Of a DNA stretch of 64,000 nucleotides, positions 3,611-20,779 are shown in pieces (the first letter of the stretch is position 1; each line of letters starts with the position of its first letter). The notes beneath the pieces are model-generated. The model worked only from the letters and a program-made list of their open reading frames with translations, did no database searches and had not been told where the DNA came from. The translations under genes were made by a program, and so were the position numbers. Source of the stretch: Cytobacillus sp. NCCP-133 (GTDB lineage Bacteria > Bacillota > Bacilli > Bacillales > Cytobacillaceae); contig NZ_BRVM01000014.1 in assembly GCF_026011715.1 (NCBI RefSeq), forward strand, positions 1-64,000. Reading direction: 5' to 3'.

Positions 3611-3612
3611 CA

Positions 3613-5043
3613 ATGAAAATGTTGATCAATTTGAAGAAGCATACTGTTTTATTTGCTATCCTTATTGGCGCCTTTTCTCTAGTATTAACGAATAGTGCCT
3701 TTAATATATTATTGCCGAATTTTGTTGAAATGTACAATATTTCAACGGTGTATGGCGGTTGGATTATCGCACTTTATCTGTTGGCAATGACGATAACAAT
3801 GCCGTTGACCGCTTGTATTGTCGATCGCCTCGGCAGAAAAAAAACGTACATTTTGGGAATTGGGTTATATGGTGTGTTTTCCATTATAGGAGGCATATTT
3901 TCACAATATGTACAGACGATACTGATTGTGCGCTTTATGCATGGCGTCTCAGCTGGTTTAATGATCCCGTTATCGTTAGTTTTATTATTTGATATTTACA
4001 GTAAGGAAGTGCGCGGAAAAGTGACTGGTGCATGGGGAATGCTGTTAACCATTGCACCGGCTGTTGGCCCAACGTTTGGAGGCTTCATTATTCAGTTTGG
4101 AGAGATGAAGCATCTTTTCTGGATCAATGTTCCTTTCGCGCTGCTTTCCTTAATACTGTGCTACAGGCAAATCACCCCAGATACACCTGCACACAGAAAA
4201 ACAATCCGCCTTCAAGGCATTGGATTAATGGTATTAGGTGTTGGCGGACTGAGTTTGGGCATTCAGATGGTTTCAAATCAGACATTTCCGGGATGGGCGG
4301 CAAGTGCATTGCTTATTTTAGGTGCAGTTATTTTAGTTCGTTTTATTCAATTGGAGGATAGACAAAAGGAACCTCTTATTCGTTTCAGACTGTTACAGAA
4401 TCCGGTATACGCTGCCTCGGTTATTATGTCAGCAGTCCATGCTTCAGTTATGTTTGGTGTTATTTTTATATTGCCCTTGATGTTCCAAGAGGTGTTTGAT
4501 TTATCACCTTCATTAACAGGTGTACTCTTTATTCCTACAGCCATTTGCACAAGTTTGTTTGTATGGATCGGAGGGAACTTAATTGATTCGGGCAAATCAA
4601 TGCGTTTTATTGTTTATGGCATCGGCCTGATTGCCATTTCCATATTATTTTTTGCATTTATCCCAAAAGGAGTGCCATTAATTTTAATTTTCATCCTAAT
4701 GGCAGGTAGAGGAATAGGTGTGGGTTTATCGAATATGCCCGTCACGACTATTGGGCTTAATTCACTCAAGGATGATGATCTGCACGAAGGTTCAACATTG
4801 TCCAATACAATCAAACGGTTGGCATCTTCTTTTTCAGTAATACTATTATCCGTTTATTACGATATCCGCTGGCATATGATCATTCAGTCCGGAGAAAGGC
4901 CGGAACTTGCAAAATGGATTGCGTTAAAAGAAGAATCCCTAATGCTAGGGGTTTGCATGCTATTAACATTACCGTTGGCTTCATTCTTAAATAGATCAAA
5001 AGTAAATGAAGGTGTTGAAAATGTCAGAAAAAAAACGATTTAA
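3613..5043 (+). CDS. MFS siderophore exporter, DHA2/EmrB type
   Basis: This 476-residue membrane protein has about 14 predicted hydrophobic segments. The MFS loop motif DRLGRKKT follows segment 2 and the antiporter-type motif AVGPTFGG lies near residues 148-155, both typical of proton-driven exporters. It begins 2 nt after the aminotransferase stop, with no clear ribosome binding site, so translation is probably coupled. Its position matches SbnD of staphyloferrin B and YhcA of achromobactin loci, hence the predicted role in secreting the finished siderophore. Substrate is inferred from context only. Confidence 0.85.
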   Translation: MKMLINLKKHTVLFAILIGAFSLVLTNSAFNILLPNFVEMYNISTVYGGWIIALYLLAMTITMPLTACIVDRLGRKKTYILGIGLYGVFSIIGGIFSQYVQTILIVRFMHGVSAGLMIPLSLVLLFDIYSKEVRGKVTGAWGMLLTIAPAVGPTFGGFIIQFGEMKHLFWINVPFALLSLILCYRQITPDTPAHRKTIRLQGIGLMVLGVGGLSLGIQMVSNQTFPGWAASALLILGAVILVRFIQLEDRQKEPLIRFRLLQNPVYAASVIMSAVHASVMFGVIFILPLMFQEVFDLSPSLTGVLFIPTAICTSLFVWIGGNLIDSGKSMRFIVYGIGLIAISILFFAFIPKGVPLILIFILMAGRGIGVGLSNMPVTTIGLNSLKDDDLHEGSTLSNTIKRLASSFSVILLSVYYDIRWHMIIQSGERPELAKWIALKEESLMLGVCMLLTLPLASFLNRSKVNEGVENVRKKTI

Positions 5044-6700
5044 CAGTCGCGATCAAGCAAATTTCCATACGTGCAAAACATTATTAAATTGTTACATTAG
5101 AGAGTTCTGCGGTGAAAACCCCAACTTATTTTCAGTCAATAAAGATGCTTATTCTATATATTTCCCAGTGAGTAACGCAATAATATCAGGGTCTCTTTCG
5201 TTCTATTCAGCACTGGGTGAACACGAATATGCCAATTATTATGTAAATGGAGTTGGAAAGCTTGATTATACTTATTTAATTGAACTGATTGTTAATGATA
5301 TAAAGGGTAAGCATCCTGAAATAAAGGCAGAACGTTCGACTGATTTTTTCAATAAAGTTGGCAATAGCTTTCATAAACTGGCCTTATTTTTAGACCATTC
5401 CGTTGAACAACATAAATGGGATTATATAACGTCAGAGCAATCACTCTTGTATGGGCATCCGTTCCATCCCTTTCCAAAAAATACATTAGGGTTTACGGAA
5501 GATGAGGTTAAAAGGTTTTGTCCCGAACTCCGAACTTCTTTTCAGTTATGTTATTTAGCTGTCAGAAAAGATATTTTTCAAGAAGAATGGGTGTCAGAAG
5601 AAAAACGGGTTAAATTGCATGACAGTATTATAGAGCATGTACGAGAAGTACTAAAAGACAAATTGGATTCCTACGAAATTTTACCCATCCATCCTTGGCA
5701 ATACGAGCATGTAAAAACAGTAAAAGATGTCTTGGATTATATAAATCAGGAGAAAATCATCCCGTTAGGTAGCTTTGGCCCTGTGGCATACCCAACATCT
5801 TCGGTTCGTACGGTGTATATTCCTGAAATGAATTGCAACATCAAGCTTTCGCTGAACATTCAAATCACAAATATGATGAGAACCAATAATAAAGAACAAA
5901 TGCGCCGAACAATGGATGCCGCCAGATACATATTACATAGAAACGGATTCGGGGCGCAATCAAATACAAAAATAGCATATGAAACAGGGATATGTACATG
6001 TCAATTTGCAAGTGAAGATGTGACAAAATTATTTACAATTGTCTATCGCCCAATTGAATTCAATCTAGAAACAACCTATGTTCTATCCAGCTTAATAGAA
6101 ATCCCAGTTAATTGTAAACATTCCCGACTTTACTCTCTGATAAAAAGTCAACATATAGAGTTAGGGGCCTGGCTCAAACAATATTTGGACATTTCATTAT
6201 TACCTATAGTCCGTTTAGCAGAAGAGAAAGGCATTCATTTTGAGGCGCACTTACAAAACTCTTTACTAACAATAAGGAATGGTTTTCCGCACACCTTTAT
6301 TATTAGAGATTTGGAAGGCGTAAGTGTAAATCAAGAAAAGGTTGAAGATGATGTTGATCCGACAGGTCCTCTTTTCTACAAAAAAGAAGAAGCCTGGGCA
6401 CGGACATCCTATTATTTTATTGTTAACCATTTAGGATCTTTAATCCATGCAATGGCCAAAGATGCAAATGTGAAAGAAGAACATTTTTGGGCGATTGTAC
6501 GTCATGTTCTTCTTCAAGAATATGAAAATAATTCAAATGAATTCATTCTTCATTTACTGACAACTGAAACGTTTGCTGCCAAAAAAAATATGATAAGTTG
6601 TCTTTGGGGAAATAGTGAGACACCGTCCTATATTCCGGTGGAAAATATATTGAAAAAATTAGGGAGTGAAACCTATGGCAACGCTAAGTTACTTGTATAA
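5021..6700 (+). CDS. NIS siderophore synthetase 1 (IucA/IucC family, likely SbnE/AcsD-type)
   Basis: This ATP-dependent synthetase adenylates a carboxylate and couples it to an amine or alcohol. Family motifs are GHPFHPFPKNTLGF (from about residue 145), HPWQ (224-227), KLSLNIQITN, HLQN (from 410, ATP/Mg binding) and a C-terminal FhuF-like region. The ATG at 5021 is chosen because AAGGTG lies 6 nt upstream; a start at 5006 lacks such a site. The gene overlaps the exporter by 23 nt. By order and family it is the best candidate for the first condensation on citrate (type A), but the assignment of substrate among the three synthetases is an inference. Confidence 0.85.
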   Translation: MSEKKRFNSRDQANFHTCKTLLNCYIREFCGENPNLFSVNKDAYSIYFPVSNAIISGSLSFYSALGEHEYANYYVNGVGKLDYTYLIELIVNDIKGKHPEIKAERSTDFFNKVGNSFHKLALFLDHSVEQHKWDYITSEQSLLYGHPFHPFPKNTLGFTEDEVKRFCPELRTSFQLCYLAVRKDIFQEEWVSEEKRVKLHDSIIEHVREVLKDKLDSYEILPIHPWQYEHVKTVKDVLDYINQEKIIPLGSFGPVAYPTSSVRTVYIPEMNCNIKLSLNIQITNMMRTNNKEQMRRTMDAARYILHRNGFGAQSNTKIAYETGICTCQFASEDVTKLFTIVYRPIEFNLETTYVLSSLIEIPVNCKHSRLYSLIKSQHIELGAWLKQYLDISLLPIVRLAEEKGIHFEAHLQNSLLTIRNGFPHTFIIRDLEGVSVNQEKVEDDVDPTGPLFYKKEEAWARTSYYFIVNHLGSLIHAMAKDANVKEEHFWAIVRHVLLQEYENNSNEFILHLLTTETFAAKKNMISCLWGNSETPSYIPVENILKKLGSETYGNAKLLV

Positions 6701-8462
6701 ACACAAGGCATCATTGATGGAAGAAGTAAAAGAGAGGATTATGCGCCAGACGTTGGAGGCCTTATTTTTTGAAGATATTATAAAAGCAATTAAAAAGGGA
6801 ACCGATTGGGTTTTTAACGGAAAAAGCGGTAAAGGAGATATCATCCAATATTCGTGTAAAGCAGTTGAGAAATGGTCATTCGGCCGAATAAAAATTGAAA
6901 AAAATTCTATTAAAAGAGAAGGAGAGAAATGCACAAATCTATATCTGTTTCTTGAAGAGGTTATACAAAATAACTTAACAGGTTCATATACTTCTCAATT
7001 TATTCATGAGCTACTAGAAACGTTAGTAAAGGATCATCAATCAAAGCAGTTCCAATTAGATCAAATACCAGAACAGGACCAACACTATGAAGCGTTGGAA
7101 AGTCATATGGTGGATGGTCACCCTTATCATCCAAGCTATAAATCAAGAATCGGTTTTTCTTTAGAAGATAATTTTGCTTATGGACCGGAATTCAATCAGG
7201 AAGTTTTAATATACTGGGTTGCAGTAAATCAACAACTAATAGATGTCAATACTTTAAAAAAGATGTCATTTGAAGAAATCATAAAACATCATATAAAAAA
7301 TGAAGATAAACTCAGGTTTTTACAGGTGCTTAAAGAAAAAGGCAGCGAAGAAAAGAATTATGTTTTCTTGCCAGTACACCCTTGGCAACTGAAAAACAAA
7401 ATTCAATCTCTCTTTGTTCAACAATTAATGGATAAAGATATTGTAATCTTGGGAACAGCAAACAGTACTTATAGAGCACAGCAATCGATCCGTTCTTTAT
7501 CTCGTCGCGAAAAAACAGAAGCACCCTATATAAAATTCCCTTTAAGTATAACAAATACTTCCACCAGTCGTATTTTAGCCCATCATACAACTCAGAATGC
7601 CCCGTTAATAAGTGATTGGCTAAACAAAATCATAGAAGATGACTCGTTATTAAAAAAGGAAAAATTTCAGATTTTAAGAGAAGTAATGGGAATATCTTTT
7701 CGATACGATCAGCTAAATTCAATTCAATACGGTATGACTTATGGAACTCTCGGCGCTATATTCAGAGAAAACGTTTCGACATATCTTGAAGATAATGAAG
7801 AAGCTTGGCCGCTAAATGCTCTATCGCATATTCAAAAGAACGGAAAACTATTTATCCAAGCTGCGATAGATCAATATGGGGTTGAAGCTTGGAGTGAAGC
7901 GCTTATTAAAGTTGTGACAATCCCAATTATACATCTATTGTTCGCTCACGGGATCGCGCTGGAATCCCACGCCCAAAATATTATCCTGGTCATTGAAAAC
8001 CAATTCCCGAAAAGAATCATTATTAAAGATTTGCATGATGGCGTTCGCTACACTCCTGATCAACTTTTAAAACCGGATTGGGCACCAAAATTAAATCCGG
8101 AGCCGGAAAGTCACAGGAAGTTTAATAGATATTCGTTCATTCAGGCCAAAGATTCAGCAGAAGTAAGAGACTATACCTATGATGCATTTTTCTTTATCTG
8201 CATGACAGAAATTTGTTTTGCTTTTGAAAAATCCGGCTTGAGTGAGAAAGATTTTTGGCGTACATGTGTAAAAACGATAGCAGCCTATCAAAATGCTCAC
8301 CCTGAATTTGCAGAACGGTTTAAAATGTTTGATTTATTTTCTGAGGATGCATTGATCGAAGAAATGACTAAGCGCCGTATTTACGGTGACGGCCAGTTGT
8401 ATTTCCGTAAAGCAAAAAATCCTTTGCTGCTGGCGTGGACTGAAATAAATGAAAAAAAATAA
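6675..8462 (+). CDS. NIS siderophore synthetase 2 (IucA/IucC family, likely SbnF/AcsA-type)
   Basis: This is the second NIS synthetase, 595 residues from the ATG at 6675, which has GGGAG 8 nt upstream. The motifs are complete: GHPYHPSYKSRIGF (from about residue 148), HPWQ (235), KFPLSITNTSTSR, HAQN (432) and IIKDLHDG. It overlaps the previous gene by 26 nt. In staphyloferrin B clusters the synthetase at this position (SbnF) acts on the mono-substituted citrate, and AcsA plays the comparable part in achromobactin. A type C role is therefore proposed, without direct proof from sequence. Confidence 0.85.
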   Translation: MATLSYLYKHKASLMEEVKERIMRQTLEALFFEDIIKAIKKGTDWVFNGKSGKGDIIQYSCKAVEKWSFGRIKIEKNSIKREGEKCTNLYLFLEEVIQNNLTGSYTSQFIHELLETLVKDHQSKQFQLDQIPEQDQHYEALESHMVDGHPYHPSYKSRIGFSLEDNFAYGPEFNQEVLIYWVAVNQQLIDVNTLKKMSFEEIIKHHIKNEDKLRFLQVLKEKGSEEKNYVFLPVHPWQLKNKIQSLFVQQLMDKDIVILGTANSTYRAQQSIRSLSRREKTEAPYIKFPLSITNTSTSRILAHHTTQNAPLISDWLNKIIEDDSLLKKEKFQILREVMGISFRYDQLNSIQYGMTYGTLGAIFRENVSTYLEDNEEAWPLNALSHIQKNGKLFIQAAIDQYGVEAWSEALIKVVTIPIIHLLFAHGIALESHAQNIILVIENQFPKRIIIKDLHDGVRYTPDQLLKPDWAPKLNPEPESHRKFNRYSFIQAKDSAEVRDYTYDAFFFICMTEICFAFEKSGLSEKDFWRTCVKTIAAYQNAHPEFAERFKMFDLFSEDALIEEMTKRRIYGDGQLYFRKAKNPLLLAWTEINEKK

Positions 8463-9252
8463 ACTTAAAGAAAAGATTAAAAAAAAGCAGCCTGTTTTTG
8501 GAATGTTTGCATCTATCCCACATCCCATTATGGTTGAACTAATTGGCCATGCGGAGTTTGATTTTGTCATTATAGATTACGAACATACATCAACGAATAT
8601 GGAAACAATTGAAGAAATGGTCCGTGCTGCGGAGTTAGTGGGAATTACACCGCTTGTCCGTATTTCGAAAGTCGATCGGATCGAAATCTTGAAAGTGCTT
8701 GATTGTGGAGCTCAAGGAATCGTAATACCTAGTGTTACCCAAAAGGAACAAATAGAAAAGGCAATTAACTATGCTTTCTATCATCCAATTGGTATGAGAA
8801 GTCTTAATAGCGGTAGGCCGGGACTTTTTGCAAAATATTCTTTAAGGGATTATATCTCCAAGGCAAATGAAGAGATCATGATCGTGCCAATGATTGAAAG
8901 CCTGGAAGGAATTCAGGGAAGTGAATCTATTTTATCATTGCCGCAAGTTAGCTTCGTTCTGGAAGGAGCGGCTGACCTTTCTCAATCACTTGCTGTGCCA
9001 TGGGAGACAGATCATCTGGAAGTTCAAAACCATCTAGAAAAATTATATGAAGTCTCAAAGCATTGTAACGTACCTTACGCAATTGTCTCCCGACATCCTA
9101 ATAACCATAGAAAGTGGTTGGAAAAAGGGGTACATATTTTTGTATTGGGGGATGAAAGAGGTACAGCATTTCGGGCATATATGGAAAAATTGAATGAATA
9201 CCGAAGTTTAATTGGAGGTCAGAATGAATTCTATAAAAAAATTAATAAATGA
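8449..9252 (+). CDS. sbnG: SbnG-like citrate synthase (HpcH/HpaI aldolase family)
   Basis: This TIM-barrel class II aldolase-family protein is predicted to condense oxaloacetate with acetyl-CoA to citrate, as SbnG does for staphyloferrin B. Its 267 residues are close to the SbnG length. Visible family motifs are FDFVIIDYEHTSTN (residues 34-47), MIESLEGI with the metal-binding Glu, and LEGAADLSQSL with the metal-binding Asp. It overlaps the upstream synthetase by 14 nt. A dedicated citrate source would uncouple siderophore production from the TCA cycle, which is often shut down in iron starvation. AcsB has the same role in achromobactin loci. Confidence 0.85.
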   Translation: MKKNKLKEKIKKKQPVFGMFASIPHPIMVELIGHAEFDFVIIDYEHTSTNMETIEEMVRAAELVGITPLVRISKVDRIEILKVLDCGAQGIVIPSVTQKEQIEKAINYAFYHPIGMRSLNSGRPGLFAKYSLRDYISKANEEIMIVPMIESLEGIQGSESILSLPQVSFVLEGAADLSQSLAVPWETDHLEVQNHLEKLYEVSKHCNVPYAIVSRHPNNHRKWLEKGVHIFVLGDERGTAFRAYMEKLNEYRSLIGGQNEFYKKINK

Positions 9253-10468
9253 GGTGCATAATCAGACGAAAGATCCAATATGTGCTTATATTTATGACTT
9301 GGAAGGGATTCGAAGCCATGTAAGTAATATGTTAAGCACACTGCCCAGGCAGACACATTTATTTTATGCGATTAAAGCGAATCCGGATAAGAGAATTATA
9401 GAAGTATTATTGCCATTAGTGAAAGGGTTTGAAGTAGCATCAATAGGTGAGTTGAACAAAGTAAGAGAGGTTTCCAAGACGGTTCCTGTTTTATTTGGGG
9501 GACCCGGCAAGAAAGATTACGAACTTGAAAGCGCAATGAGTGAAAATGTTTCATATCTGCATGCAGAAAGTCTTTTGGAACTGAAGAAATTAATTGTACT
9601 GGCGAAAAAAAGCAAAAAACATATTCATGTCTTATTACGGATTAATTTAAGAACAAATTCTTTACCCAAAACTAACATATCGATGGGAGGTCGACCAAGT
9701 CAGTTTGGAATGGATGAAGAGTTAATTGGGGAAGCGCTATCCATTTTAAGAGAGAAAGAAAATACCCACGTTCATTTCAAGGGTTTTCACTTCCACTCTT
9801 TATCAAATAACCTGAAAGCGGAATTGCACGTAGAAATGATTCATCATTATATTCAAAAAGTGGAACGATGGAAGCACCAATATGGATTAGATGTAAAAGT
9901 GATCAATGCCGGAGGAGGTTTTGGGGTTTCCTATAATGAAACAACTGGATTTGACTGGAATCTTTTTACCTCCTTGCTCTCCAATAGTGAAAAAGTACAA
10001 AGTCTGGGGGATACGGAATTGTTCTTTGAACCTGGCAGGTTTGTCGTTGCTGACCATGGTTATTATGCTGCGGAAGTAGTTGATATAAAAATGTCAGTCG
10101 GGCAGTGCTTCGCTGTTATAAGGGGAGGAACCCATCATAATAGATTGCCTGCATCTTGGGGGCATAATCATCCGTTTTCTGTTATGCATCTTGAAAGATG
10201 GTCTTATCCTTTTCAAAGGCCGGAAGTCAAAGATTCGAACGTTACGATTGTAGGTGAGTTGTGCACCCCAAAGGATCGACTCCATGAAAATGTCATGGTG
10301 AAAAGTTTACGGGTTGGGGATGTCATCTTGTTCAAAAAGTCAGGTGCCTATTGCTGGACGATTTCTCACCACGACTTTTTAGGTCATCCTCATCCTGAAT
10401 TTTATTACATAACAGAAGGGGACTGTCATGGAAAAAGCAATGATTCAAAAACAAAGTATTACAGCTGA
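9224..10468 (+). CDS. sbnH: SbnH/AcsE-like PLP-dependent decarboxylase (fold III)
   Basis: This decarboxylase belongs to the alanine racemase-like fold III group with diaminopimelate decarboxylase. The PLP lysine is residue 51 in YAIKANPD. The glycine-rich phosphate loop is INAGGGFGVSY, and the active-site Cys 347 lies in GELCTPKD. SbnH and AcsE remove CO2 from a citryl-amino acid intermediate during assembly. The ATG at 9224 is preferred because GGAGG lies 5 nt upstream; it overlaps sbnG by 29 nt. Substrate here could be citryl-serine (achromobactin route) or a citryl-diamino acid (staphyloferrin B route). Confidence 0.85.
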   Translation: MNSIKKLINEVHNQTKDPICAYIYDLEGIRSHVSNMLSTLPRQTHLFYAIKANPDKRIIEVLLPLVKGFEVASIGELNKVREVSKTVPVLFGGPGKKDYELESAMSENVSYLHAESLLELKKLIVLAKKSKKHIHVLLRINLRTNSLPKTNISMGGRPSQFGMDEELIGEALSILREKENTHVHFKGFHFHSLSNNLKAELHVEMIHHYIQKVERWKHQYGLDVKVINAGGGFGVSYNETTGFDWNLFTSLLSNSEKVQSLGDTELFFEPGRFVVADHGYYAAEVVDIKMSVGQCFAVIRGGTHHNRLPASWGHNHPFSVMHLERWSYPFQRPEVKDSNVTIVGELCTPKDRLHENVMVKSLRVGDVILFKKSGAYCWTISHHDFLGHPHPEFYYITEGDCHGKSNDSKTKYYS

Positions 10469-12263
10469 GCAAATCATAACTCAAGATTTAATGAATGCAT
10501 TTATTGCAGAGCAATTTTTTTTGATCGATAAACAGACGACAAAAATGCTGGAAGAGGCACCAACTGGTATCCAACAACTTTATCCCGCATTTAAACAAAC
10601 CTTGGTTTATATTGATAACTTATGTTTTCTGCTTGAAAAAAGCTATAGACAGGGATATCAGTGGGTATCTGGTTCTTCTATTTACAAGAAGGAGGACCAA
10701 GATTGGGTAGAGATCACTTCAACAATTGAACTTAGTGAATGCGTACTGGAATATTCGTTGTCAAAAGAAGCGTATGAACATCCCGGTGTAAAGGATTTTC
10801 TGAAAGGGTTAAAAGTATCTATAGAGCAATTAAATCTTAGCCTAAAACGGGTAGATGATTTCAAAACGATTAAGCCGAAATCAGCTTACGATTGGTTTGT
10901 AAAAGGAGAGATGATTGCATCATTACGCGATCGCCCATTTCATCCGTTATCCAAAGCTAAAATAGGTTTTACACCAATTGATTATCAACAATATATGGCT
11001 GAATTCAGGAGAAAGACAACTCTATGCTGGGTGGCAATATGTAATGATTCAGTCGTAAAAGGGGGCCCGGAAAATGGACTTGAAAGCTTTGATATTCTAA
11101 AAGACGAGGAAAAAGCGATTATTGAAAAGGAGTTAATGATCAAGGGAATTTCCAAAGATGAATATACGATTATCCCAGTTCATCCTTGGCAGCTTAACAA
11201 TATAATCATCCCGAATTTTAATCAGGAATTAAAAGACAAAACAATTGTTATTCTGGATGCAAAAGTTGGTGATTTCCTAGCCACATCTTCTGTCCGCTCA
11301 TTAACATCTCCCCATGAGTCAACAAAAATGCTGAAATTGCCAATTAGTGTTATGTCTTTGGGCGCTTCCAGATACTTACCAGTCGTAAAATTGTTGAACG
11401 GCATAGCTGGAGAGAAAATGTTTCGGCAAGCCTTAGCTTGTGACGAGACTCTTACTGACAGAGTATTCTTATGTGAAGAAAAAAATTGGTGGGGATATTT
11501 ACCACAATCAATGGGGCTTTTTGTTGATCATCCGCGCCATTTAGCTACCCAAATAAGAGTTTATCCTCAAGAAATTATGAAAAATGGGTATAAAATAGTC
11601 CCTATGTCTTCATTGGGCGTAGATCTACAGGACCAACATTTTTTAAGTGAATTAGTAGAAAAGAATTTATCAAATAAAGATGTCGTCGATATTTACTCGG
11701 AGCTCACAGGGATGTTTTATGATATTACTATGAGGTTGTTTAAAGTCGGAATTGTACCGGAAATTCACGGCCAAAATTGTTGTGTGGTTCTAAAAAATAA
11801 AAAAATAGCGGGACTGTTATTTAGAGATCATGATTCAGTACGCCTGTATCAACCATATTTAGATAAACATCAAATTAAAGATCCTAAGTACCATATAAGA
11901 CCTGGTTATTCAAACAGCTTGTACAACGAAACAGTTGAAAAATTAATTTTTTATATCCAATCCCTTGGCACACAAGTGAATTTGGCGGCAATAATGGAAT
12001 CTTTATCAAAAATCTATCATATTCCAGAAGAAACATTTTGGAAAATTACAGAAATTAAATTACGAGAAGCATTACAAACAATTGACATTCCTGAGAAGGA
12101 TAGAGAAGTAATCCACTATGCACTTTTCGAAAGAAAACAATGGCCAGTAAAGCTGATCATCCGTCCTTTACTTGAATCGGATGGTGTACCAGGGGCGATG
12201 CCATCTGGAAAGGGGATAGGATATAATCCATTTTATGAATTAGCAAGGGGGTCAAAATGTTAA
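10428..12263 (+). CDS. NIS siderophore synthetase 3 (IucA/IucC family, likely SbnC/AcsC-type)
   Basis: This third synthetase has 611 residues. Motifs are RPFHPLSKAKIGF (from about residue 169), HPWQ (252), KLPISVMSLGASR, HGQN (447) and LFRDHDSVRLY. Arg replaces Gly before the PFHP motif, unlike the other two copies. Type B enzymes (SbnC, AcsC) use 2-oxoglutarate as carboxylate donor. I propose that role because the other two positions fit types A and C. The gene overlaps sbnH by 41 nt and has AAGGGGA upstream of the ATG. In S. aureus sbnC comes first, so the order differs. Confidence 0.83.
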   Translation: MEKAMIQKQSITAEQIITQDLMNAFIAEQFFLIDKQTTKMLEEAPTGIQQLYPAFKQTLVYIDNLCFLLEKSYRQGYQWVSGSSIYKKEDQDWVEITSTIELSECVLEYSLSKEAYEHPGVKDFLKGLKVSIEQLNLSLKRVDDFKTIKPKSAYDWFVKGEMIASLRDRPFHPLSKAKIGFTPIDYQQYMAEFRRKTTLCWVAICNDSVVKGGPENGLESFDILKDEEKAIIEKELMIKGISKDEYTIIPVHPWQLNNIIIPNFNQELKDKTIVILDAKVGDFLATSSVRSLTSPHESTKMLKLPISVMSLGASRYLPVVKLLNGIAGEKMFRQALACDETLTDRVFLCEEKNWWGYLPQSMGLFVDHPRHLATQIRVYPQEIMKNGYKIVPMSSLGVDLQDQHFLSELVEKNLSNKDVVDIYSELTGMFYDITMRLFKVGIVPEIHGQNCCVVLKNKKIAGLLFRDHDSVRLYQPYLDKHQIKDPKYHIRPGYSNSLYNETVEKLIFYIQSLGTQVNLAAIMESLSKIYHIPEETFWKITEIKLREALQTIDIPEKDREVIHYALFERKQWPVKLIIRPLLESDGVPGAMPSGKGIGYNPFYELARGSKC

Positions 12264-12856
12264 CCATTAAAGAAAGGATTCAGAGATACACAACGGATGA
12301 AATGGCGAAATTTAAAACAATAAGTACTTCCACAATAGGGCACTTTACCGACTTTGGTTTTATATCCAATTTTAAATGTACAGTGCCTGTCACAAAAGTG
12401 CATGGGGAAGTCATTACCGTAAAATTATCAAGTGGAGATGGTTACCCGCTAAATATAGCCCTTCAACATGCCAAAGAAGGGGAAATTTTAGTTATTGATA
12501 CTTCTGGGAATAAAACACATGCATGCTGGGGAGAATTCAGAGCGAGAAAAGCAGTTGAAATTGGATTATCTGCCGTTATAATTGACGGGGCAGTAGCAGA
12601 TGTTGAATATTTAAGGCATTGCCGGATTCCTGTATTTTATGAAACAATTTCACCAAAGACGACAAGAAATTTAAAGCTCGAGGGTGAAGTCAACACTCCG
12701 GTAAGTGTTGGAGGAGTCGTTTTTGAATCGGGTGACTATATTATCGCTGATCAAGACGGGATTTACAAATTTAACCACCTAAATTATAAAATGTTAATGG
12801 AACGTGCAATTGACAAAGAAAAAAAAGAGAAGTCAAGAAGATTGGGGATTTCTTAA
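12257..12856 (+). CDS. RraA-like protein (HMG/CHA aldolase-type fold)
   Basis: This 199-residue protein is of the RraA/4-hydroxy-4-methyl-2-oxoglutarate aldolase family, whose active members split or decarboxylate oxaloacetate-like acids. The family core is present: SSGDGYPLNIALQHA, AKEGEILVIDTSG, CWGEFRARKAVEIGL and the IDGAV-DVEYL segment. In active aldolases and RraA that segment reads GAVRD, with Arg contacting pyruvate and Asp binding metal; here Arg is replaced by Ala 114 while Asp 115 is kept. It overlaps the last synthetase by 7 nt, so it belongs to the operon. Its function in siderophore synthesis is unknown. Confidence 0.75.
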   Translation: MLTIKERIQRYTTDEMAKFKTISTSTIGHFTDFGFISNFKCTVPVTKVHGEVITVKLSSGDGYPLNIALQHAKEGEILVIDTSGNKTHACWGEFRARKAVEIGLSAVIIDGAVADVEYLRHCRIPVFYETISPKTTRNLKLEGEVNTPVSVGGVVFESGDYIIADQDGIYKFNHLNYKMLMERAIDKEKKEKSRRLGIS

Positions 12857-12878
12857 AGATTAATTTGGAGCATATGTA

Positions 12879-12902
12879 TTCCCACCAAACTTTTGGTGGG
12901 AA
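12879..12902 (+). terminator. Hairpin ending the biosynthesis operon
   Basis: TTCCCACCAA and TTGGTGGGAA form a perfect 10-bp stem with a 4-nt loop, 22 nt after the RraA-like stop. No T run follows directly (a T6 tract lies about 15 nt further), so it may be an attenuator or an mRNA-stabilising hairpin rather than a full terminator. Confidence 0.6.
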
Positions 12903-12987
12903 TGTACGTATAAGGTTTTTTACTGCCGAAGTTTTAGCAGTTGCTAATTATTCATCATAATCGAAAAAATTTATTAGGATGATAAAC

Positions 12988-13743
12988 ATGAACAATACGG
13001 TGAGCAATAAACTCAGGACCTTTAATATACATTTAGAGAATGAGAAAGCAAAAGATATCGATATGTCGGAACTTTTAAATGAAAAAACATGTAGAATATT
13101 TTTACAGAGGTTGATGAAAGAGATAAAGGCACCAAATTTATCAGTCGCTGCTTCGATGTTTTCCAAAAGGTATGCCTATCTTGTGGTTGCTTCAAACTTA
13201 TATAGTATGGTCGAATACAACAGTGCACTAAAATTACCCATTAAAGCATGTGCGTTGAGCAAAGAACGGGAATTATGCATTCAATCGAAAGATTGGCCCT
13301 GGGACGAAGGATCTGATTCAGTGAGGGAACAATGGCGTGAAAATGTATTACACTCTCTTTTTTCTGAGCATATTACGCCCATCTTTAATATTCTGCAAAA
13401 AACTTCCCGTCTTTCATCAGCAATTTTGTGGGAAAACGTAGCCATTCGAATCAACTCCATCTATCGGAAATTATTATCAAAAGATATGGAGATGGTTAAA
13501 ATTGAGCGTTTGAACAGTGACTTTGAATTCTTAAAGGATGCACAAGGGGACCTTTTTAATTTAAAAGAAAATCCGATTAGACAATTTTTGAAGATTGGAT
13601 TTGAATTTGAGCAAAATTCTTCGCGAAGAACTTGCTGTATGTATTATCAGCTGGAAGAAGACATTGAAGGAATAGGTTATTGCGGAATTTGCCCGATGAA
13701 AAGCAAACTCAAAAGAACCGGTAAATATATAGAAGAATGTTAA
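12988..13743 (+). CDS. FhuF-like ferric-siderophore reductase
   Basis: This protein of about 251 residues has the C-terminal signature of FhuF-type [2Fe-2S] reductases. A Cys pair in RRTCCMYY is followed after about 15 residues by YCGICPM, giving the CC-x(n)-C-x2-C cluster ligands. Members remove iron from imported siderophores by reduction in the cytoplasm. The ATG at 12988 is preferred over 12979 because AGGA lies 8 nt before it. The gene sits between the biosynthesis block and the importer, which supports a role in iron release. The N-terminal half is poorly conserved and unassigned. Confidence 0.72.
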   Translation: MNNTVSNKLRTFNIHLENEKAKDIDMSELLNEKTCRIFLQRLMKEIKAPNLSVAASMFSKRYAYLVVASNLYSMVEYNSALKLPIKACALSKERELCIQSKDWPWDEGSDSVREQWRENVLHSLFSEHITPIFNILQKTSRLSSAILWENVAIRINSIYRKLLSKDMEMVKIERLNSDFEFLKDAQGDLFNLKENPIRQFLKIGFEFEQNSSRRTCCMYYQLEEDIEGIGYCGICPMKSKLKRTGKYIEEC

Positions 13744-13947: not shown

Positions 13948-13962
13948 TGATAATAATTATCA
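13948..13962 (+). promoter_or_regulatory. Perfect Fur box before the importer operon
   Basis: TGATAATAATTATCA is a perfect 7-1-7 box, flanked so that the palindrome extends to AAAATGATAATAATTATCATTTT (seen across 13944-13966). It lies 24 nt upstream of the lipoprotein start and overlaps the likely transcript start, predicting iron repression of the uptake genes. Confidence 0.85.
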
Positions 13963-13986: not shown

Positions 13987-15033
13987 ATGTCTGGAATTAC
14001 ATATTCATTTGAAAAAAAATACTCATTTTCATTGCTTGCAATCATTTTATCACTTGTAATGTTTCTGGCTGGGTGCGGAAGTCAATCATCAGGGGGAACT
14101 TCGAAAGATAATAAAGAGGCGGAACAAACAGAACAAAAAGAAGCAGCTGCCCCAGAATCTGAAGGTTCCCGTGAAATCACTCATGCAATGGGAACAACAA
14201 CCATTAAGGGAACACCAAAAAGAATTGTAACCCTATACCAAGGAGCTACCGATGTTGCAGTTGCTTTTGGAGTGAAGCCGGTAGGTGCGGTGGAGTCCTG
14301 GGTGGAACAGCCGGTTTATGAATATCTGAGAGCCGATTTGGAAGGGGTTCAAAATGTCGGTTTGGAGACACAGCCAAACTTGGAAGAAATTGCTAAATTA
14401 AAACCTGATTTGATTATCGCTTCAAAACTGCGTCATGAAAAAATTTATGATCAATTATCTCAAATTGCCCCAACAGTCACACATGAGACGGTTTTTAAAT
14501 TTAAGGAAACGGTAGATTTAATGGGGAATGCCTTAAATAAAGAAAAAGCAGCAAATAAACTTGTTTCTGATTGGGACGGCAGGGTTGCTGATTTCAAAGA
14601 AAAAATTACTGCCAAAATGGGAGATAAGTGGCCGGTTGAGGTCTCCATACTTAATTTCAGGGAAGACCACTCCCGTATTTATATTACAGGCTTCGCGGGG
14701 GACATTTTAAGTGAACTGGGATTTGAACGTCCTGAATTTCAGCAACAAGAAGCTGAAAAAGGTACTGTAGTACTAAAGCTGACAGACAAAGAAAGTATTC
14801 CCAATATGAATGCCGATGTTTTCTTTGTTTTCAATTTTGATGATACTAGCGGCGATGCTGTTAAAAAATCTTTTGAGGAATGGACGAATCATCCATTGTG
14901 GAAAGATCTTGATGCTGCGAAAAATAATCAAGTCTATATGGTAAATGAGATTTCCTGGAATAATGGTGGGGGCATCATTGCTGCCAATAACATGCTGGAT
15001 GATCTTTATACGCATTTCGAGTTGGAGAAATAA
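13987..15033 (+). CDS. Ferric-siderophore ABC transporter, substrate-binding lipoprotein
   Basis: The N-terminus has a basic start, a hydrophobic segment and the lipobox LAGC with Cys 30 as lipidation site. A low-complexity linker rich in Glu, Ala and Ser follows. The mature domain resembles FepB/FecB-type binding proteins: PKRIVTLYQGATDVAVAFG, then LKPDLIIASKL and WNNGGGIIAANNMLDDL at the C-terminus. It would capture the iron-loaded siderophore at the cell surface. It is similar in type to SirA and YfiY. GGAGG precedes the ATG, and Fur boxes lie directly upstream. Confidence 0.85.
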   Translation: MSGITYSFEKKYSFSLLAIILSLVMFLAGCGSQSSGGTSKDNKEAEQTEQKEAAAPESEGSREITHAMGTTTIKGTPKRIVTLYQGATDVAVAFGVKPVGAVESWVEQPVYEYLRADLEGVQNVGLETQPNLEEIAKLKPDLIIASKLRHEKIYDQLSQIAPTVTHETVFKFKETVDLMGNALNKEKAANKLVSDWDGRVADFKEKITAKMGDKWPVEVSILNFREDHSRIYITGFAGDILSELGFERPEFQQQEAEKGTVVLKLTDKESIPNMNADVFFVFNFDDTSGDAVKKSFEEWTNHPLWKDLDAAKNNQVYMVNEISWNNGGGIIAANNMLDDLYTHFELEK

Positions 15034-15051
15034 ATATTCAAAGATTTAGGC

Positions 15052-15083
15052 AGAATAGGAAGGATTTTTAATCCTCCTATTCT
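15052..15083 (+). terminator. Intercistronic hairpin after the binding protein gene
   Basis: AGAATAGGAAGGATT pairs with AATCCTCCTATTCT across a short T-rich loop. Only a weak T tract (TTGTCGTTT) follows, so this is likely a partial terminator that lowers permease expression relative to the binding protein. Confidence 0.65.
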
Positions 15084-15122
15084 TGTCGTTTATAAACTAA
15101 TTCATGAAAGAAGAGGGAGGAA

Positions 15123-16136
15123 ATGACGCATCTATTTCCCTATAACTACTTAAAAATTTTAGGTTTAATTCTCGGTTTTTGTCTTTTTGCCATCTCTTTT
15201 ATTTTAAGCGTTGCTTTGGGCCAGACACCAATTCCTTTTAAAACTACGATTGATGCCTTGCTGAATTTCGACCCATCTTCAACAGAACATGTAATCATAA
15301 CAACGACACGAATTTCAAGAGCTGTTATTGCAACCGTAATCGGAGCAAGTCTCGCCATAGCTGGGGCATTTATGCAGGCATTAACGAGAAACCCGCTGGC
15401 TTCCCCGAGTATTTTTGGGATCAACGCCGGTGCACTGTTCTTTATCGTTTTAGCAGTTTCTTTTTTTTCAGTTTCCTCCTTGATACATCTTATGTGGATG
15501 GGTTTTTTGGGGGCGGCAGTTGCAGCAATTTTAGTGTATTTTCTTGGTTCGTTGGGACGGGATGGGTTGTCACCAATAAAAATTGTTCTGGCGGGTGCTG
15601 CCATTTCAGCCTTATTTGTATCTTTTACTCAGGGGTTACTGGTCCTTGATGAACAAAATCTGGAAGGAGTACTTTTTTGGCTGTCCGGCTCTGTTGCTGG
15701 CAGGACACTGGATATGCTGAAACCAATCTTACCTTTCATGGCAGGCGCAGGAATCTTGGCTTTCTTATTGGGGCATGCAGTTAATATTTTGTCCTCTGGA
15801 GAAGACATTGCGAAAGGTCTGGGGCAACGAACCATTTTAGTTAAAATATTAATGGCATGTGTTGTTGTCATCTTGGCTGGCGGTTCTGTTGCAGTTGGCG
15901 GTTCCATTGGTTTTATTGGTCTGATTATCCCTCATATTGTTCGTTCGTTAGTTGGTATTGACTATCGGTGGATTGTTCCCTATAGTGCATTATTTGGGGC
16001 CAGTTTATTATTGTTGGCTGATGTGGCGGCAAGGTTTGTTATTATGCCCCAAGAAATGCCTATCGGAGTGATGACCGCATTTATTGGCACCCCATTTTTT
16101 ATTTATATTGCACGCAGGGGGTTTAATAAGGAATGA
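15123..16136 (+). CDS. Ferric-siderophore ABC permease 1 (FecCD family)
   Basis: This 337-residue permease has about nine to ten hydrophobic segments. FecCD landmarks are GASLAIAGAFMQALTRNPLASPSIFGINAGA near residues 75-105, the GGSVAVGGSIGFIGLIIPHIVR coupling-helix region near 255-277, and LLLADVAARF. It forms half of the membrane channel with the next gene. GGGAGG lies just before the ATG. The 3' end overlaps the second permease by 4 nt. Confidence 0.88.
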   Translation: MTHLFPYNYLKILGLILGFCLFAISFILSVALGQTPIPFKTTIDALLNFDPSSTEHVIITTTRISRAVIATVIGASLAIAGAFMQALTRNPLASPSIFGINAGALFFIVLAVSFFSVSSLIHLMWMGFLGAAVAAILVYFLGSLGRDGLSPIKIVLAGAAISALFVSFTQGLLVLDEQNLEGVLFWLSGSVAGRTLDMLKPILPFMAGAGILAFLLGHAVNILSSGEDIAKGLGQRTILVKILMACVVVILAGGSVAVGGSIGFIGLIIPHIVRSLVGIDYRWIVPYSALFGASLLLLADVAARFVIMPQEMPIGVMTAFIGTPFFIYIARRGFNKE

Positions 16137-17173
16137 ACAAGTATTTCTCAGTTAGGAATAAATCAGGTAAAGTATCTTTCCATTTAGAAAAAAAAATGAT
16201 TGTCATGTTATTATCATTATTTTGTGTATCACTATTGTTATTTATCACGGGATTATCCGTTGGCAGTACGATGATTAACCCTATTACAGTCCTATTGCAT
16301 TTACTGGGGGTGGAAAGTCCAGAACATCAATTTATCATTGAAACTCTTAGACTTCCTCGAGCGATTCTTTCTTTACTTGTCGGCATGGCACTTGGGGTAT
16401 CCGGTTTAATTTTACAGGGAATCATACGGAATCCGTTGGCTTCTCCTGATATTATAGGAATAACGGGCGGGGCTTCAGCTGCGGCAGTTTTGTTTATTAC
16501 ATACTTTTCGGGTTCAGTCAGTATTAATTTAATCCCTTTTGTAGCCATTTTGGGGGCAGGAACCGTCTCGCTTGTCATCTATATTTTAGCCTGGAAGAAA
16601 GGGGTAACACCGATTCGGCTAGTGCTGATAGGAATAGGAATGTCAGCGGCAATGGGTGCTTTAACGACAATGATGATTGTTCTTAATCGCACTTATACTA
16701 CAGGCCAAGCTTATATTTGGCTAACAGGAAGTGTTTATGGTGCAAATTGGGAAAATGTGTATTCCATGCTGCCGTGGGTGCTGATTTTTGTTCCTCTTGC
16801 TCTTCTTTTTTCGCCAGAGGTGAATGTTCAGGAACTGGGAGATCAAGTTGCCTTGGGTTTGGGATCAAGAGTTCAGCTTAACCGATTAGCTTTGCTTATT
16901 ATTTCAGTGGCTTTGGCAGGTTCCGCTGTGGCATATGGCGGAGGAATCGGTTTTGTCGGTTTAATTGCGCCCCATATTGCAAGAAAACTTGTTGGCCGAT
17001 CTTTTGGAGGGTTAATACCAATGTCTGCTTTAATAGGTGGATTAATCGTTATTTTAGCGGATGTGGTGGCTAGAACTGTATTTCTTCCACTTGATCTTCC
17101 GGCAGGGGTTTTTGTATCTGGAATAGGTGCACCATTTTTTATATATTTACTTTACAGAAATCGGAATATGTAA
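16133..17173 (+). CDS. Ferric-siderophore ABC permease 2 (FecCD family)
   Basis: This is the second FecCD permease, 346 residues, with an extra N-terminal basic segment before the first membrane helix. It has [49 protein letters not shown] (the ATPase-contacting EAA-like loop) and a C-terminal [21 protein letters not shown]. The start overlaps the previous stop by 4 nt, so the pair is translationally coupled, consistent with a heterodimeric importer such as SirBC or YfiZ/YfhA. Confidence 0.88.
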
Positions 17174-17187
17174 AGGAGCTAAGACTT

Positions 17188-17991
17188 ATGAACGTGTTAG
17201 AAGCAAGGTCTCTGACCTTGAAATATGGTGAAGCAACAATAATTGATGATCTTGATTTGATAATTCCCACAGGAAAAATCACGGTATTCGTTGGAGCCAA
17301 TGGTTGCGGGAAATCCACTTTATTGCGTTCACTAGCCCGTCTTATAAAACCCAAATCAGGTCAGGTGTTACTAGGGGGTGATGTTGTAGGAGATTTATCT
17401 ACTAAAGAGGTGGCTAAACGTCTTGGCATTTTACCACAGGGTCCAGTTGCTCCTGAAGGTCTTACAGTTTTTCAACTTGTTAAACAAGGAAGGTATCCTT
17501 ATCAAAGTTGGCTAAGACAATGGTCTTTTGAAGATGAAAAAGTGGTGGATCAAGCACTTCGGGTTACCGGAATGAAAGAATTTTCTGATAGGTCAGTTGA
17601 CGCCTTATCTGGCGGACAGAGGCAAAGAGCATGGATTGCGATGACATTGGCTCAAAAGACGGATATTATTTTATTAGATGAACCCACAACCTATTTGGAT
17701 ATGACACATCAAGTTGAAATTTTAAACCTTTTATTTGAATTGAATGAACTGGAAAAGCGAACAGTTGTTATGGTTTTACATGATTTGAATTTGGCGTGTC
17801 GATATGCGCATCAAATTGTAGCAATTAGTAATAAAAAGGTTTATTTACAGGGGAAACCGGAGGATGTAATAACATCTGAAATGGTAAAAGATGTTTTTCA
17901 AATGGATTGCATCATTACAAAAGACCCGTTGTTTGGTACTCCTTTATGTATTCCACACGGCAAAGGCAGACGAGTTTTAGTAAAGGAGTAA
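17188..17991 (+). CDS. Ferric-siderophore ABC ATPase (FecE/YusV-like)
   Basis: This 267-residue ATPase powers the importer. Walker A is GANGCGKST (residues 36-44), the signature is [10 protein letters not shown], Walker B is [12 protein letters not shown], and the switch His lies in VMVLHDLN. Overall it resembles YusV/FecE-type iron-carrier ATPases. It starts 14 nt after the second permease behind AAAGGAG. A close but damaged paralogue lies at 20021-20779. Staphylococcal staphyloferrin B uptake lacks a dedicated ATPase gene in its locus, whereas this locus has one. Confidence 0.9.
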
Positions 17992-18946: not shown

Positions 18947-19989
18947 TTAAATTGTGGTTAACCTGAGCTCACCACCCTGGACCGCGTTTGAGTCCGTGGT
19001 AAGTTCTCGGTCGGCGGATGGGATAAAAAATGCCTTTACGGCACCATCCGCAGGAATAAATACCTTTTCATTAATAAGGGGATCATTTGTTAAAATGTCA
19101 GTTAGAATTTTACTCATAAGTGGCCCGTTATGAATGGTTTGTTCGGATAATGTTCGAACCTCACCAGTCAAATGGACATTTGTTGTTAATTTATAATGTG
19201 GTTTAAAGCCCTTCATATCCATAGGAAATAGCGTTCTAAAAGACATTCCCGCATAGTAAAAGCATTTGTCATAAGGAATCTTAATTAGTTCCATGCTATT
19301 TATTTCCGATGAAAACATGGTTGGTACTATATTTTCTGCTTGCCAAGGGTGAACAGGAAGAATGTAATAATTTTTAGTTTTTTTCCCCAATTCTATTAAT
19401 GTTTTTTCAAATGTTGTTTTCAGATCAGGTTCGTATGAAAAAAGTAACTCATTCCAATTTCTATTTAAAATACTCCTACTCGCCAACGTTTTATATAAGG
19501 CAACAAAGGAGAGTTTAACTGGGTTTTGGAATTCAGATGAATATTTATAATTTTCATAGGCTGAGAGGCCTTTCCTCATCTTTGCGCCCGGATGGCAGGG
19601 GTGACCCTCAATAACGGATTGCTCCATAATTACATAGGAATCCTGATGATTTTCTGCTGCCTCTAAAAAGGAAACAGGATTCAGTGATTTTTTAAAATCT
19701 TTATACGCATAAGCAAGTGCTAAATTAGCGGAACTGTTGGAAAGGTCGTTCTTGAACGAATCCAATGCTTCTTGACCTTGATTCCAACCCTCTTTTGATA
19801 TATTTCAAGGACCTTCACAGGATGTGTAATCTCCATTTGAATCCCTTTCTCGGGTACAAGTGCAAATGGACTTGCTACTTCCACCCTTCCAGATGCAAAC
19901 CTTTGAATGATAGGTACAATGATAAAAGTCCCTTGATTGTTGAAAGGAAGAATAGTAAGCTCTATGAATCTTTCGTAGACATTATACAT
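18947..19989 (-). pseudogene. Fourth NIS synthetase (IucA/IucC), frameshifted and truncated
   Basis: On the minus strand, 18947-19765 encodes family motifs GHPCHPGAKMRKGLS and YILPVHPWQAEN, followed by MSFRTLFPM and YKLTTNVHLTGEVR. The N-terminal continuation (FASGRVEVASPFALV, 19720-19989) lies in another frame, so a frameshift sits near 19765-19780. The C-terminal half, with the H-x-QN nucleotide motif and FhuF-like tail, is missing; homology fades near 19000. Its motif sequence differs from the three intact synthetases, so it came from a different siderophore gene set. Confidence 0.82.
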
Positions 19990-20020: not shown

Positions 20021-20779
20021 GATTTAATAATCACCATTCCAGAAGGGAAAATAACGGTATTGATTGGCGGTAACGGGAGTGGAAAATCTACCATTCTCCG
20101 TTCGCTGGCCAGACTACTGAAGCCACAAAAAGGAACAGTATACTTGGATGGTAAAAAAATTGACCGTGAACCTACGAGGGAAGTTGCAAAAAAGCTTGCA
20201 ATATTACCACAGGGTCCACAGGCACCGGAAGGTTTGACAGTTAAGGAGTTGTGTTACTATGGTCGTCATCCGCATAAAGGGCTTTTATCAAAAAATACAA
20301 AAATTGACCATGAAATGGTTGATTGGGCACTTGATGCTACCCGTATGCATGACTTTGCGGAAAGGCCACTCGACGCTTTATCAGGAGGACAACGACAAAG
20401 GGCATGGATCGCAATGGCACTCTGTCAAGGAACAGACTTACTCCTATTGGATGAGCTAACAACTTATCTTGACTTGGCCCACCAAATTGAAGTACTGCAG
20501 TTGTTAAGGGAATTAAACGGTGAATACGGCCGAACCATCTTAATGGTACTCCATGATCTTAACCAGGCTGCACGCTATGCTGACTATTTAATAAGTATTT
20601 CGAATGGAAAAATATACAGAGAAGGGACTCCAAAGGATATTTTTACAGAAAAAATGATTAATGAAGTATTTGGACTAGAATGCCGTATTATTGAAGACCC
20701 TGTGGAAGGATCACCAATGTGTGTTCCGATTGGCCTGAGCGGAGAAAAAAAGAAGAAAAAGATTATTTCCATTTCTTAA
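20021..20779 (+). pseudogene. Second siderophore ABC ATPase, 5'-truncated
   Basis: The frame opens right after a TAG at 20018-20020 and joins the family at [22 protein letters not shown], so about the first 22-25 residues are missing. No good start exists except a TTG at 20060 inside Walker A. The rest is intact ([17 protein letters not shown]). Walker B reads [12 protein letters not shown] instead of DEPTTYLD, a Pro to Leu change at an otherwise nearly invariant site. It is a close paralogue of the ATPase at 17188-17991. Truncation plus this change point to a decaying copy. Confidence 0.75.

Follow-up and report, generated by a model that had tools for sequence, protein, structure and literature searches.

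In the 64,000-nucleotide stretch of Cytobacillus sp. NCCP-133 analyzed here (NZ_BRVM01000014.1, positions 1 to 64,000; hereafter the window, meaning this whole stretch), the final gene of a siderophore operon (12257–12856, + strand) encodes an RraA-like protein of 199 amino acids (aa) that belongs to a siderophore-locus subfamily of the RraA/HMG-CHA-aldolase fold. The members of this subfamily lack the arginine on which the known aldolase depends, while retaining its metal-binding acidic residues, and the subfamily recurs in many bacteria that, judging from the genes around it, appear to make 2-oxoglutarate-containing siderophores. The RraA gene itself is already present in published clusters. 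What a recurring gene of achromobactin- and baumannoferrin-type clusters gains here is a signature (His29, Arg95, and no Arg114), a partner (a 2-oxoglutarate-attaching synthetase), and a testable chemistry, for which we tentatively consider a ring–chain interconversion of the 2-oxoglutaryl end of the siderophore. The automatic labels “RNase E regulator” and “menaquinone methyltransferase” are misleading in these operons.

Residue signature and fold of the subfamily

The RraA-like gene starts at an ATG directly preceded by an AAGGGGG stretch and overlaps, by 7 nucleotides (nt; 12257–12263), the upstream open reading frame (ORF) of a nonribosomal peptide synthetase-independent siderophore (NIS) synthetase (10428–12263). 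Its product lies well within the PF03737 family (112.3 bits; cut-off 24.5). The motif reads IIDGAVADVEYL, and a phmmer alignment to 3NOJ, the HMG/CHA aldolase of Pseudomonas putida F1, sets Ala114-Asp115 opposite Arg123-Asp124. Both the overlap with the last synthetase and the GAVAD motif (Ala114, Asp115) had been noted in a preliminary description of the window, and both are borne out by the ORFs and this alignment. A sequence accident or frameshift at the motif was considered and rejected, because the reading frame is unbroken and the Arg is missing throughout the family.

Specifically, the subfamily set comprised 90 proteins (80 from the scan, 4 from plasmids, the window protein, and 5 from loci of the G-numbered genomes; 85 before those five), the search of genome contigs with a three-sequence alignment covering the best 80 of 129 relatives. 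Residue 114 was Thr in 77, Ser in 7, Ala in 5, Asn in 1, and Arg in none (Thr 72, Ser 7, Ala 5, Asn 1, and Arg 0 for n = 85), so the loss of the catalytic Arg, as first described, is genuine. Ala114 is confined to the window protein and four Paenibacillus loci (5/90), the former thus being without the common, non-universal Thr114, while Asp115, Thr136, and Asp/Glu191 are each present in all 90. The window protein otherwise carries the subfamily signature of ACWGExR with Arg95, His29, Asp115, and no Arg at 114. Its closest relative found, in genome G044, reads GAVTD, the RraA gene being split in that assembly.

The second residue of interest, Arg95, occurs in 83 of the 90 members, a frequency that is inflated within the scan because one of the two peptide patterns used there includes the R of ACWGExR (position 114 is in neither pattern), and it is absent from seven members in peptide-transporter/amidase loci. 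All 80 members beside an NIS ORF carry it, as do both of those in loci with uptake and FhuF genes (L094 and L114). Elsewhere, residue 95 is Val or Met in seven of eight members (L100, L111, L121, L128, and L167–L169, the last three found by a separate profile search outside the pattern scan), the exception being a truncated orphan. On sequence grounds, Arg95 is a siderophore-specific mark that tracks siderophore loci. The orphan is a subfamily ORF of Pseudomonas sp. CC6-YY-74 (L083:10061–10546) in a stretch without siderophore genes; here and below, stretches covered 10 kb per side at most, and absences hold for the stretch.

The AlphaFold2 model of the window protein (29-row alignment; mean predicted local distance difference test score of 93.8) matched 3NOJ best in VIA-align (Z 26.1, 198 residues, root-mean-square deviation 2.2, 25% identity). 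The 12 best rows, including 3K4I, 5IR2, and 2C5Q under other names, were RraA/HMG-CHA folds (Z 18.9–26.1 overall and 18.9–22.7 after 3NOJ), and the next row fell to 8.9. With the P. putida F1 aldolase, the window protein shares the fold, the metal Asp, the second acidic ligand, the acid-water Thr (Thr145, which is Thr136 in the window by alignment), and the pocket Gly. It departs from it in the replacement of the essential Arg123 by Ala/Thr, of Glu36 by His29, and of Leu104 by Arg95, and in a siderophore rather than an aromatic-catabolic context. In the aldolase, as PMC5065237 describes it, the metal is bound by Asp124/Glu199, the acid water is held by Thr145, Gly101 lines the pyruvate pocket just before Asp102, and Arg123 stabilizes the pyruvate enolate; Arg123Ala had undetectable activity, and Arg123Lys lowered kcat 181-fold. 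Held against this enzyme, the window protein has both acidic ligands (Asp115 and, by alignment, Glu191) and lacks the catalytic Arg (Ala114), and it scores below the NCBIfam aldolase equivalog cut-offs (TIGR02798, 82.1 versus 304.5; NF006731, 88.8 versus 179).

One reading of this pattern is that the protein still works as a pyruvate-type aldolase or as a decarboxylase of keto acids, with Arg95 in place of Arg114, for example to supply or drain oxaloacetate or 2-oxoglutarate. In its favor, Arg95 is kept in most members while Arg114 is lost in all, and helix 93–102 of the model starts at Glu93 (3NOJ Asp102 by alignment), placing Arg95 in its first turn, two residues past the Asp102 equivalent. 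An Arg supplied from elsewhere, which the preliminary description had named as refuting its reading, is in part what we see: a new Arg95 lies beside the pocket, as a candidate substitute for Arg114. Against this reading, the seven non-siderophore members lack both arginines, so that the loss of Arg114 needs no compensation by Arg95; even Lys at this place is costly in the known enzyme (PMC5065237); and about 20 of the 79 linked loci treated below show no HpcH/HpaI aldolase to feed. We consider a rescued aldolase quite unlikely.

Escherichia coli RraA, the RNase E regulator, likewise shares the fold (2YJV, Z 20.1; 1Q5X, Z 20.0), but the equivalog scores of the window protein are far too low for it (NF006875, 71.7 versus 136; TIGR02998, 40.3 versus 241.25), and it is the longer protein at both ends, according to the alignment ranges. 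A non-catalytic role, in which the protein would serve the NIS enzymes or FhuF as a partner, a scaffold, or a metabolite sensor, like the protein–protein inhibition exerted by E. coli RraA, is suggested by the missing catalytic Arg and by the protein partners that RraA-fold proteins bind (PDB 2YJV, by its title). Such a role seems unlikely, given that the metal ligands and Thr136, invariant or conservatively exchanged in all 90 members, would be needless in a pure scaffold and that the RraA equivalog cut-offs are missed.

Linkage to AcsA/SbnC-type synthetases

The siderophore context of the subfamily extends well beyond the window. Siderophore loci harbor 82 of the 90 members, among them Pseudomonas achromobactin-type clusters, the Acinetobacter bfn locus, and loci of Moraxella, Sodalis, Thalassospira, halomonads, and Paenibacillus. 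Annotated siderophore operons with related proteins are those of Sodalis pSG1, Thalassospira marina, and Moraxella osloensis, and an unannotated Acinetobacter baumannii locus whose gene order fits bfnA-L carries one as well. Paenibacillus terrae (L107 and L113) and Pseudomonas chlororaphis (L081) are further carriers of the locus. The search for RraA-like genes in other siderophore loci called for earlier thus found them, with the Arg lost in every subfamily member. The explanation that an unrelated catabolic gene had landed here as an isolated event was rejected, in view of the 79 linked loci across Pseudomonadota and Bacillota. In the window's own family, a close match (79% or more) was found only in the window's genome and G044, among 193 genomes. 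The G044 locus (L053, G044:C43:70001–90000) holds a near-orthologous operon in which several genes, including RraA, are apparently split into two ORFs, reflecting decay or poor assembly. Three A. baumannii records of 3.6–4.1 Mb with a bfn-type locus (NZ_CP104448.1, NZ_CP077849.1, and NZ_CP064203.1) are filed as plasmids and are probably chromosomes or cointegrates.

The association is sharpest with one class of synthetase. NIS synthetases were typed by a tree of 318 ORFs, each of at least 350 aa, a filter that dropped L063, whose SbnC-like ORF has 313 aa. A well-supported clade of 99 unites the SbnC-like protein of the window, the Sodalis AcsA-position and the BfnE-position proteins, and proteins from the sbnA/B-bearing operons of family f19, probably staphylococci; we use “type B” as the label of this clade, which is tied to SbnC/AcsA via homology. 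SbnC couples 2-oxoglutarate to a staphyloferrin B precursor (PMC9301485, PMC3179956), achromobactin joins 2,4-diaminobutyrate (DAB) with citrate and 2-oxoglutarate (PMC3179956), and baumannoferrin includes 2-oxoglutarate and DAB (PMC10483418), according to these sources. The ORF that the window's RraA gene overlaps (10428–12263) is a member of the clade, and all 79 linked loci with an NIS ORF of at least 350 aa (77 in the first set, plus L170 and L171) hold a type-B synthetase, compared with 20 of 55 subfamily-free NIS loci, these being drawn from 53 Bacilli genomes picked for spread and contig space out of 105 NIS-positive ones. Among plasmid records, an RraA match lay within about 5 kb in all 17 that had an AcsA-like match of at least 38% identity, these being near-copies from four genera (Sodalis 4, Thalassospira 1, Acinetobacter 3, and Moraxella 9). 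In the 3 of 11 weaker plasmid matches that were inspected (Agrobacterium, Methylocystis, and Pseudonocardia), sbnA was present and no RraA gene was annotated within the siderophore operon.

In the stretches read, sbnA/sbnB were found in none of the 79 RraA loci versus 15 of the 20 RraA-free type-B loci. Together with a DAB aminotransferase in 17 of the 79, this would suit a protein acting on a precursor, such as a spontaneous adduct of DAB and 2-oxoglutarate (metabolite repair). We think this very unlikely, as three loci combine the aminotransferase and a type-B synthetase without RraA, and as neither gene was seen in 62 of the 79 linked loci, chiefly since just 10 kb per side was read.

Within the linked loci, RraA and the type-B gene lie on one strand in 76 of 79, at a median distance of 4.2 kb. 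The nearest upstream gene, meaning the nearest that the analysis queries recognize, is FhuF-like in 51 loci; in 16 it is the type-B synthetase, and the other loci have a permease (7) or an ATPase (5) there. The listed ORFs include an FhuF-like one in 57 of the 79 and an HpcH/HpaI aldolase in 58, and the aldolase of L090, left out there, was found by tblastn; the loci in which none was seen include five read only from within the operon (L107, L112, L113, L122, and L129). The keto-acid link drawn in the preliminary description therefore divides: 2-oxoglutarate gains support, through the type-B synthetase of every linked locus, while a tie to oxaloacetate or citrate supply is weakened by the loci without the aldolase.

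The A. baumannii locus, assigned to bfn from its gene order, holds a candidate BfnG (L048:9962–10579) of the same subfamily, with ACWGEQR and GAITD, and its gene adjoins an FhuF-like gene near an AcsA/SbnC-clade synthetase. It differs from the window protein in sequence (30% identity), in belonging to a hydroxamate siderophore, and in that the listed cluster has no gene labeled HpcH/HpaI aldolase. Psyr_2595 of Pseudomonas syringae B728a is likened to the subfamily by its label and position, P. syringae-group scan loci carrying an FhuF-like and then a subfamily RraA gene there, an order unlike that of the window, where RraA follows the type-B synthetase rather than FhuF. Its label, “Menaquinone biosynthesis,” is presumably an old RraA/MenG label. 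As given in PMC3329529, Psyr_2595 closes the achromobactin cluster after the “Hypothetical” Psyr_2594 and is 2.7-fold lower in an acsS mutant, and PMC10483418 counts bfnG, an “RraA family protein” in its gene table, among the biosynthesis genes. The statement that RraA-type proteins are not part of standard NIS pathways is thus not supported by the published clusters. No functional assignment of these RraA proteins was found in the open-access literature matches listed, the original cluster papers lying mostly outside them.

A candidate ring–chain chemistry and its rivals

We favor, as a possibility rather than a probability, the explanation that the siderophore-locus RraA protein is a metal-dependent enzyme that interconverts an open 2-oxoglutaryl-amide and a 5-hydroxypyrrolidone ring and is unfit for enolate chemistry. 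With its metal site kept and no equivalent of Arg123, the protein should bind an alpha-keto acid and form no enolate, and metal-assisted ring closure or opening would be compatible with this, since it requires none. The alpha-keto acid head group would still be held via a divalent metal by the retained Asp115 and Glu191, and with the Arg gone, C–C cleavage or decarboxylation would no longer take place. The substrate would be the 2-oxoglutaryl-amide attached by the type-B synthetase, an N-substituted alpha-ketoglutaramate, whose ketone the metal would polarize so that the amide nitrogen adds or leaves, the product pair being the open keto-amide and 5-hydroxypyrrolidone-5-carboxylate; the role envisaged for Arg95 is to hold either the substituted amide or one of the siderophore's carboxylates. 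In its ring form the compound is an alpha-hydroxycarboxylate, and this form binds iron. The activity would be reversible, with ring closure in synthesis and ring opening after uptake, and such two-way activity would fit the gene's two chief locations, behind either the type-B synthetase or FhuF. If true, bacteria would enzymatically set whether the 2-oxoglutarate arm of the siderophore binds iron.

The loss of the Arg can be followed outside the subfamily. Among 71 distinct other RraA-family genes from the same searches (75 control rows minus 2 repeats and 2 subfamily genes, with the G044 near-orthologue included), 57 kept Arg114. By rows, Asp/Glu29 occurred in 22 of the 75, all with Arg114; His29 in 18, of which 17 were without it; and 34 rows, all with Arg114, were gapped at position 29. 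In a 138-row tree, for which the bootstrap was unsettled and branches were long, one branch (support 97/92) parted the Arg114 rows from the Arg-less rows, the wider Arg-less branch holding 103 rows, and the Arg95 proteins fell in one 92-row group (97/91) with nine Arg95-less peptide-transporter-type rows nested within it. Going by this tree, the loss of Arg114 is older and wider than siderophore use. Its interpretation as a siderophore-specific trait was rejected, since it maps to the base of the wider branch, which includes non-siderophore loci.

Some of these relatives lie beside a carbon–nitrogen hydrolase gene. One was found within 2.5 kb in 9 of the 22 rows lacking both arginines, and, within 1.6 kb, in 5 of these 22, 0 of 58 Arg114 rows, and 0 of 85 Arg95 rows, an uneven count in that the flanks of most control loci were just 1.5 kb. 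Omega-amidases are members of this hydrolase family, and a hydrolase near Arg95-less relatives is as expected were the relative a ring opener that feeds an amidase. At neutral pH, alpha-ketoglutaramate is reported to be 99.7% lactam and 0.3% open, with slow, base-catalyzed exchange, and omega-amidase to take the open form only (PMC9671947, PMC10452834). A broader and more doubtful proposal is that the Arg-less RraA branch as a whole consists of metal-dependent ring–chain tautomerases for alpha-ketoglutaramate-type keto-amides, a proposed function for which no established family was found. At catabolic loci such enzymes would open the lactam for the adjoining carbon–nitrogen hydrolase, and in achromobactin/baumannoferrin-type loci Arg95 would retune the protein to the 2-oxoglutaryl end of the siderophore, ring closure making the iron-binding group and ring opening freeing it, as an enzyme-controlled chelation switch. 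Were this so, the same enzyme branch would account for the opening of the inert alpha-ketoglutaramate lactam at neutral pH.

Separately, the sister RraA genes without either Arg (L100, L111, L121, L128, and L167–L169) lie near peptide-type ATP-binding cassette (ABC) ATPases and a carbon–nitrogen hydrolase, and their loci may represent an uncharacterized amide-catabolic locus. A family check, made of these neighborhoods for L100 alone, confirmed the hydrolase (PF00795) there, along with a creatininase-family gene, a peptide-type binding protein, and a PrpR-like sigma-54 activator. In Roseinatronobacter (L046:8869–10667), a carbon–nitrogen hydrolase adjoins an Arg-less RraA gene, and on Agrobacterium pTiCFBP4996 (L227:120–1853) such a hydrolase lies beside an Arg-less RraA gene that also lacks Arg95, within a few kb of a siderophore locus of the sbnA/B kind but on the opposite strand.

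Several points weigh against the favored ring–chain explanation and the linkage behind it. First, the parent ring–chain reaction is described as spontaneous (PMC12004150), and a spontaneous or base-catalyzed reaction may make an enzyme unnecessary. Second, that Arg95 reaches into the pocket is deduced from its position in the sequence and on the model helix. Third, the type-B linkage of all 79 loci derives mainly from relatives of three query proteins, and the loci are phylogenetically non-independent. The Bacilli sample is weak, with RraA in 3 of 23 type-B loci (the window counted) versus 0 of 35 others (Fisher p = 0.057), and the gene is missing from 20 of its 22 type-B loci, 15 of these having sbnA/sbnB. 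Only 6 of the 105 NIS-positive Bacilli genomes have a subfamily member above 200 bits, and just three of these members are in type-B NIS loci (the window, G395, and G410), those of G313, G388, and G467 being in peptide-transporter loci. Further, L222, L223, and L226, also among these 20 loci, hold almost the same operon as the window, with the DAB aminotransferase and the type-B synthetase and no RraA after the synthetase, making them natural contrasts for what the gene adds. Co-occurrence with siderophore genes, the absence of which the preliminary description had named as refuting its reading, is strong, yet most of the NIS loci in the Bacilli sample do not have the gene. 2-Oxoglutarate siderophores in general do not require RraA, and the gene may assist, or be specific to, some of them. 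Finally, L094 (Hahella) and L114 (Paenibacillus farraposensis) have uptake, FhuF, and RraA genes in stretches that lack any NIS gene, an arrangement suggestive of siderophore use and not of synthesis.

These two loci also speak for a rival in which the protein, working in the cytoplasm with an FhuF-type reductase, degrades or unlocks the ferric siderophore after import, by hydrolysis of the 2-oxoglutaryl amide or by retro-aldol cleavage of a citryl or 2-oxoglutaryl unit. Of the 51 loci with an FhuF-like gene nearest upstream, 48 have a gap below 60 nt or an overlap, and the two genes overlap in Sodalis and Thalassospira. On the other side, 22 of the 79 linked loci show no FhuF-like ORF; Pantoea pPag2 has uptake and FhuF genes and, in an incomplete annotation, no annotated RraA or NIS genes within 12 kb; the window's RraA gene sits 5′ of a strong hairpin, among the synthesis genes; and aldol cleavage is unlikely without the Arg, going by the variants reported in PMC5065237. 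We regard breakdown as conceivable and rather doubtful. The RraA protein may act in synthesis or in utilization.

The operon and uptake genes of the window

The biosynthetic operon runs on the + strand from 2261 to 12856 without real gaps, and this continuity, with the synthetase overlap, upholds the view of the RraA gene as part of a siderophore operon. An exact Fur-box-like palindrome (2136–2150; 0 mismatches to the consensus) lies about 110 nt 5′ of the first gene, which encodes an AcsF/Dat-like diaminobutyrate–2-oxoglutarate aminotransferase (2261–3610; NF005393, 724.7 bits, cut-off 671). Then follow an EmrB-like major facilitator superfamily exporter (3613–5043; family searches, below the EmrB-family cut-off), a putative type A NIS synthetase (5006–6700) in a tree clade that also contains AcsD-position proteins, and an SbnF/AcsC-like NIS synthetase (6666–8462; placed by the tree and the SbnF model, 507.5 bits, cut-off 900). 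Family searches identified an HpcH/HpaI aldolase family protein in the SbnG/AcsB position (8449–9252) and a pyridoxal phosphate-dependent decarboxylase in the SbnH/AcsE position (9212–10468). The third NIS synthetase (10428–12263) is SbnC/AcsA-like (SbnC model, 406.5 bits, cut-off 700), type B, and 2-oxoglutarate-attaching by homology; the SbnF and SbnC models are species-specific, and both synthetases score below their cut-offs. The RraA-like protein (12257–12856), with His29, ACWGEFR (Glu93, Arg95), GAVAD, Thr136, and Glu191, completes the set. From gene order and family scores, the operon is achromobactin-like.

The hairpin directly 3′ of the RraA gene (12872–12911, + strand; minimum free energy −32 kcal/mol, z −3.77, in the 122-nt spacer 12857–12978) is possibly the end of the biosynthetic transcript or an mRNA stabilizer; a terminator pattern scan flagged none after the RraA gene, so that its strength is that of the fold alone. 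Beyond it, also on the + strand, lie an FhuF-like siderophore-iron reductase gene (12979–13743; 54.6 bits, below the equivalog cut-off of 63.85), a second exact Fur-box-like palindrome (13948–13962), and, 3′ of the latter, siderophore ABC uptake genes (13987–17991). The uptake genes, identified by reading translations only, encode a binding protein (13987–15033), two permeases (15123–16136 and 16133–17173), and an ATPase (17188–17991), and genes of like types adjoin RraA in related loci. Farther downstream, a 272-aa ORF on the − strand (18947–19765) matches the middle part of IucA/IucC synthetases (FslA-like, model positions 169–387 of 640) and looks like the remnant of a second NIS synthetase gene. 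It is adjoined by a second siderophore-type ABC ATPase ORF (20060–20779, + strand), which resembles the one at 17188–17991 by eye and is possibly left from another uptake cluster.

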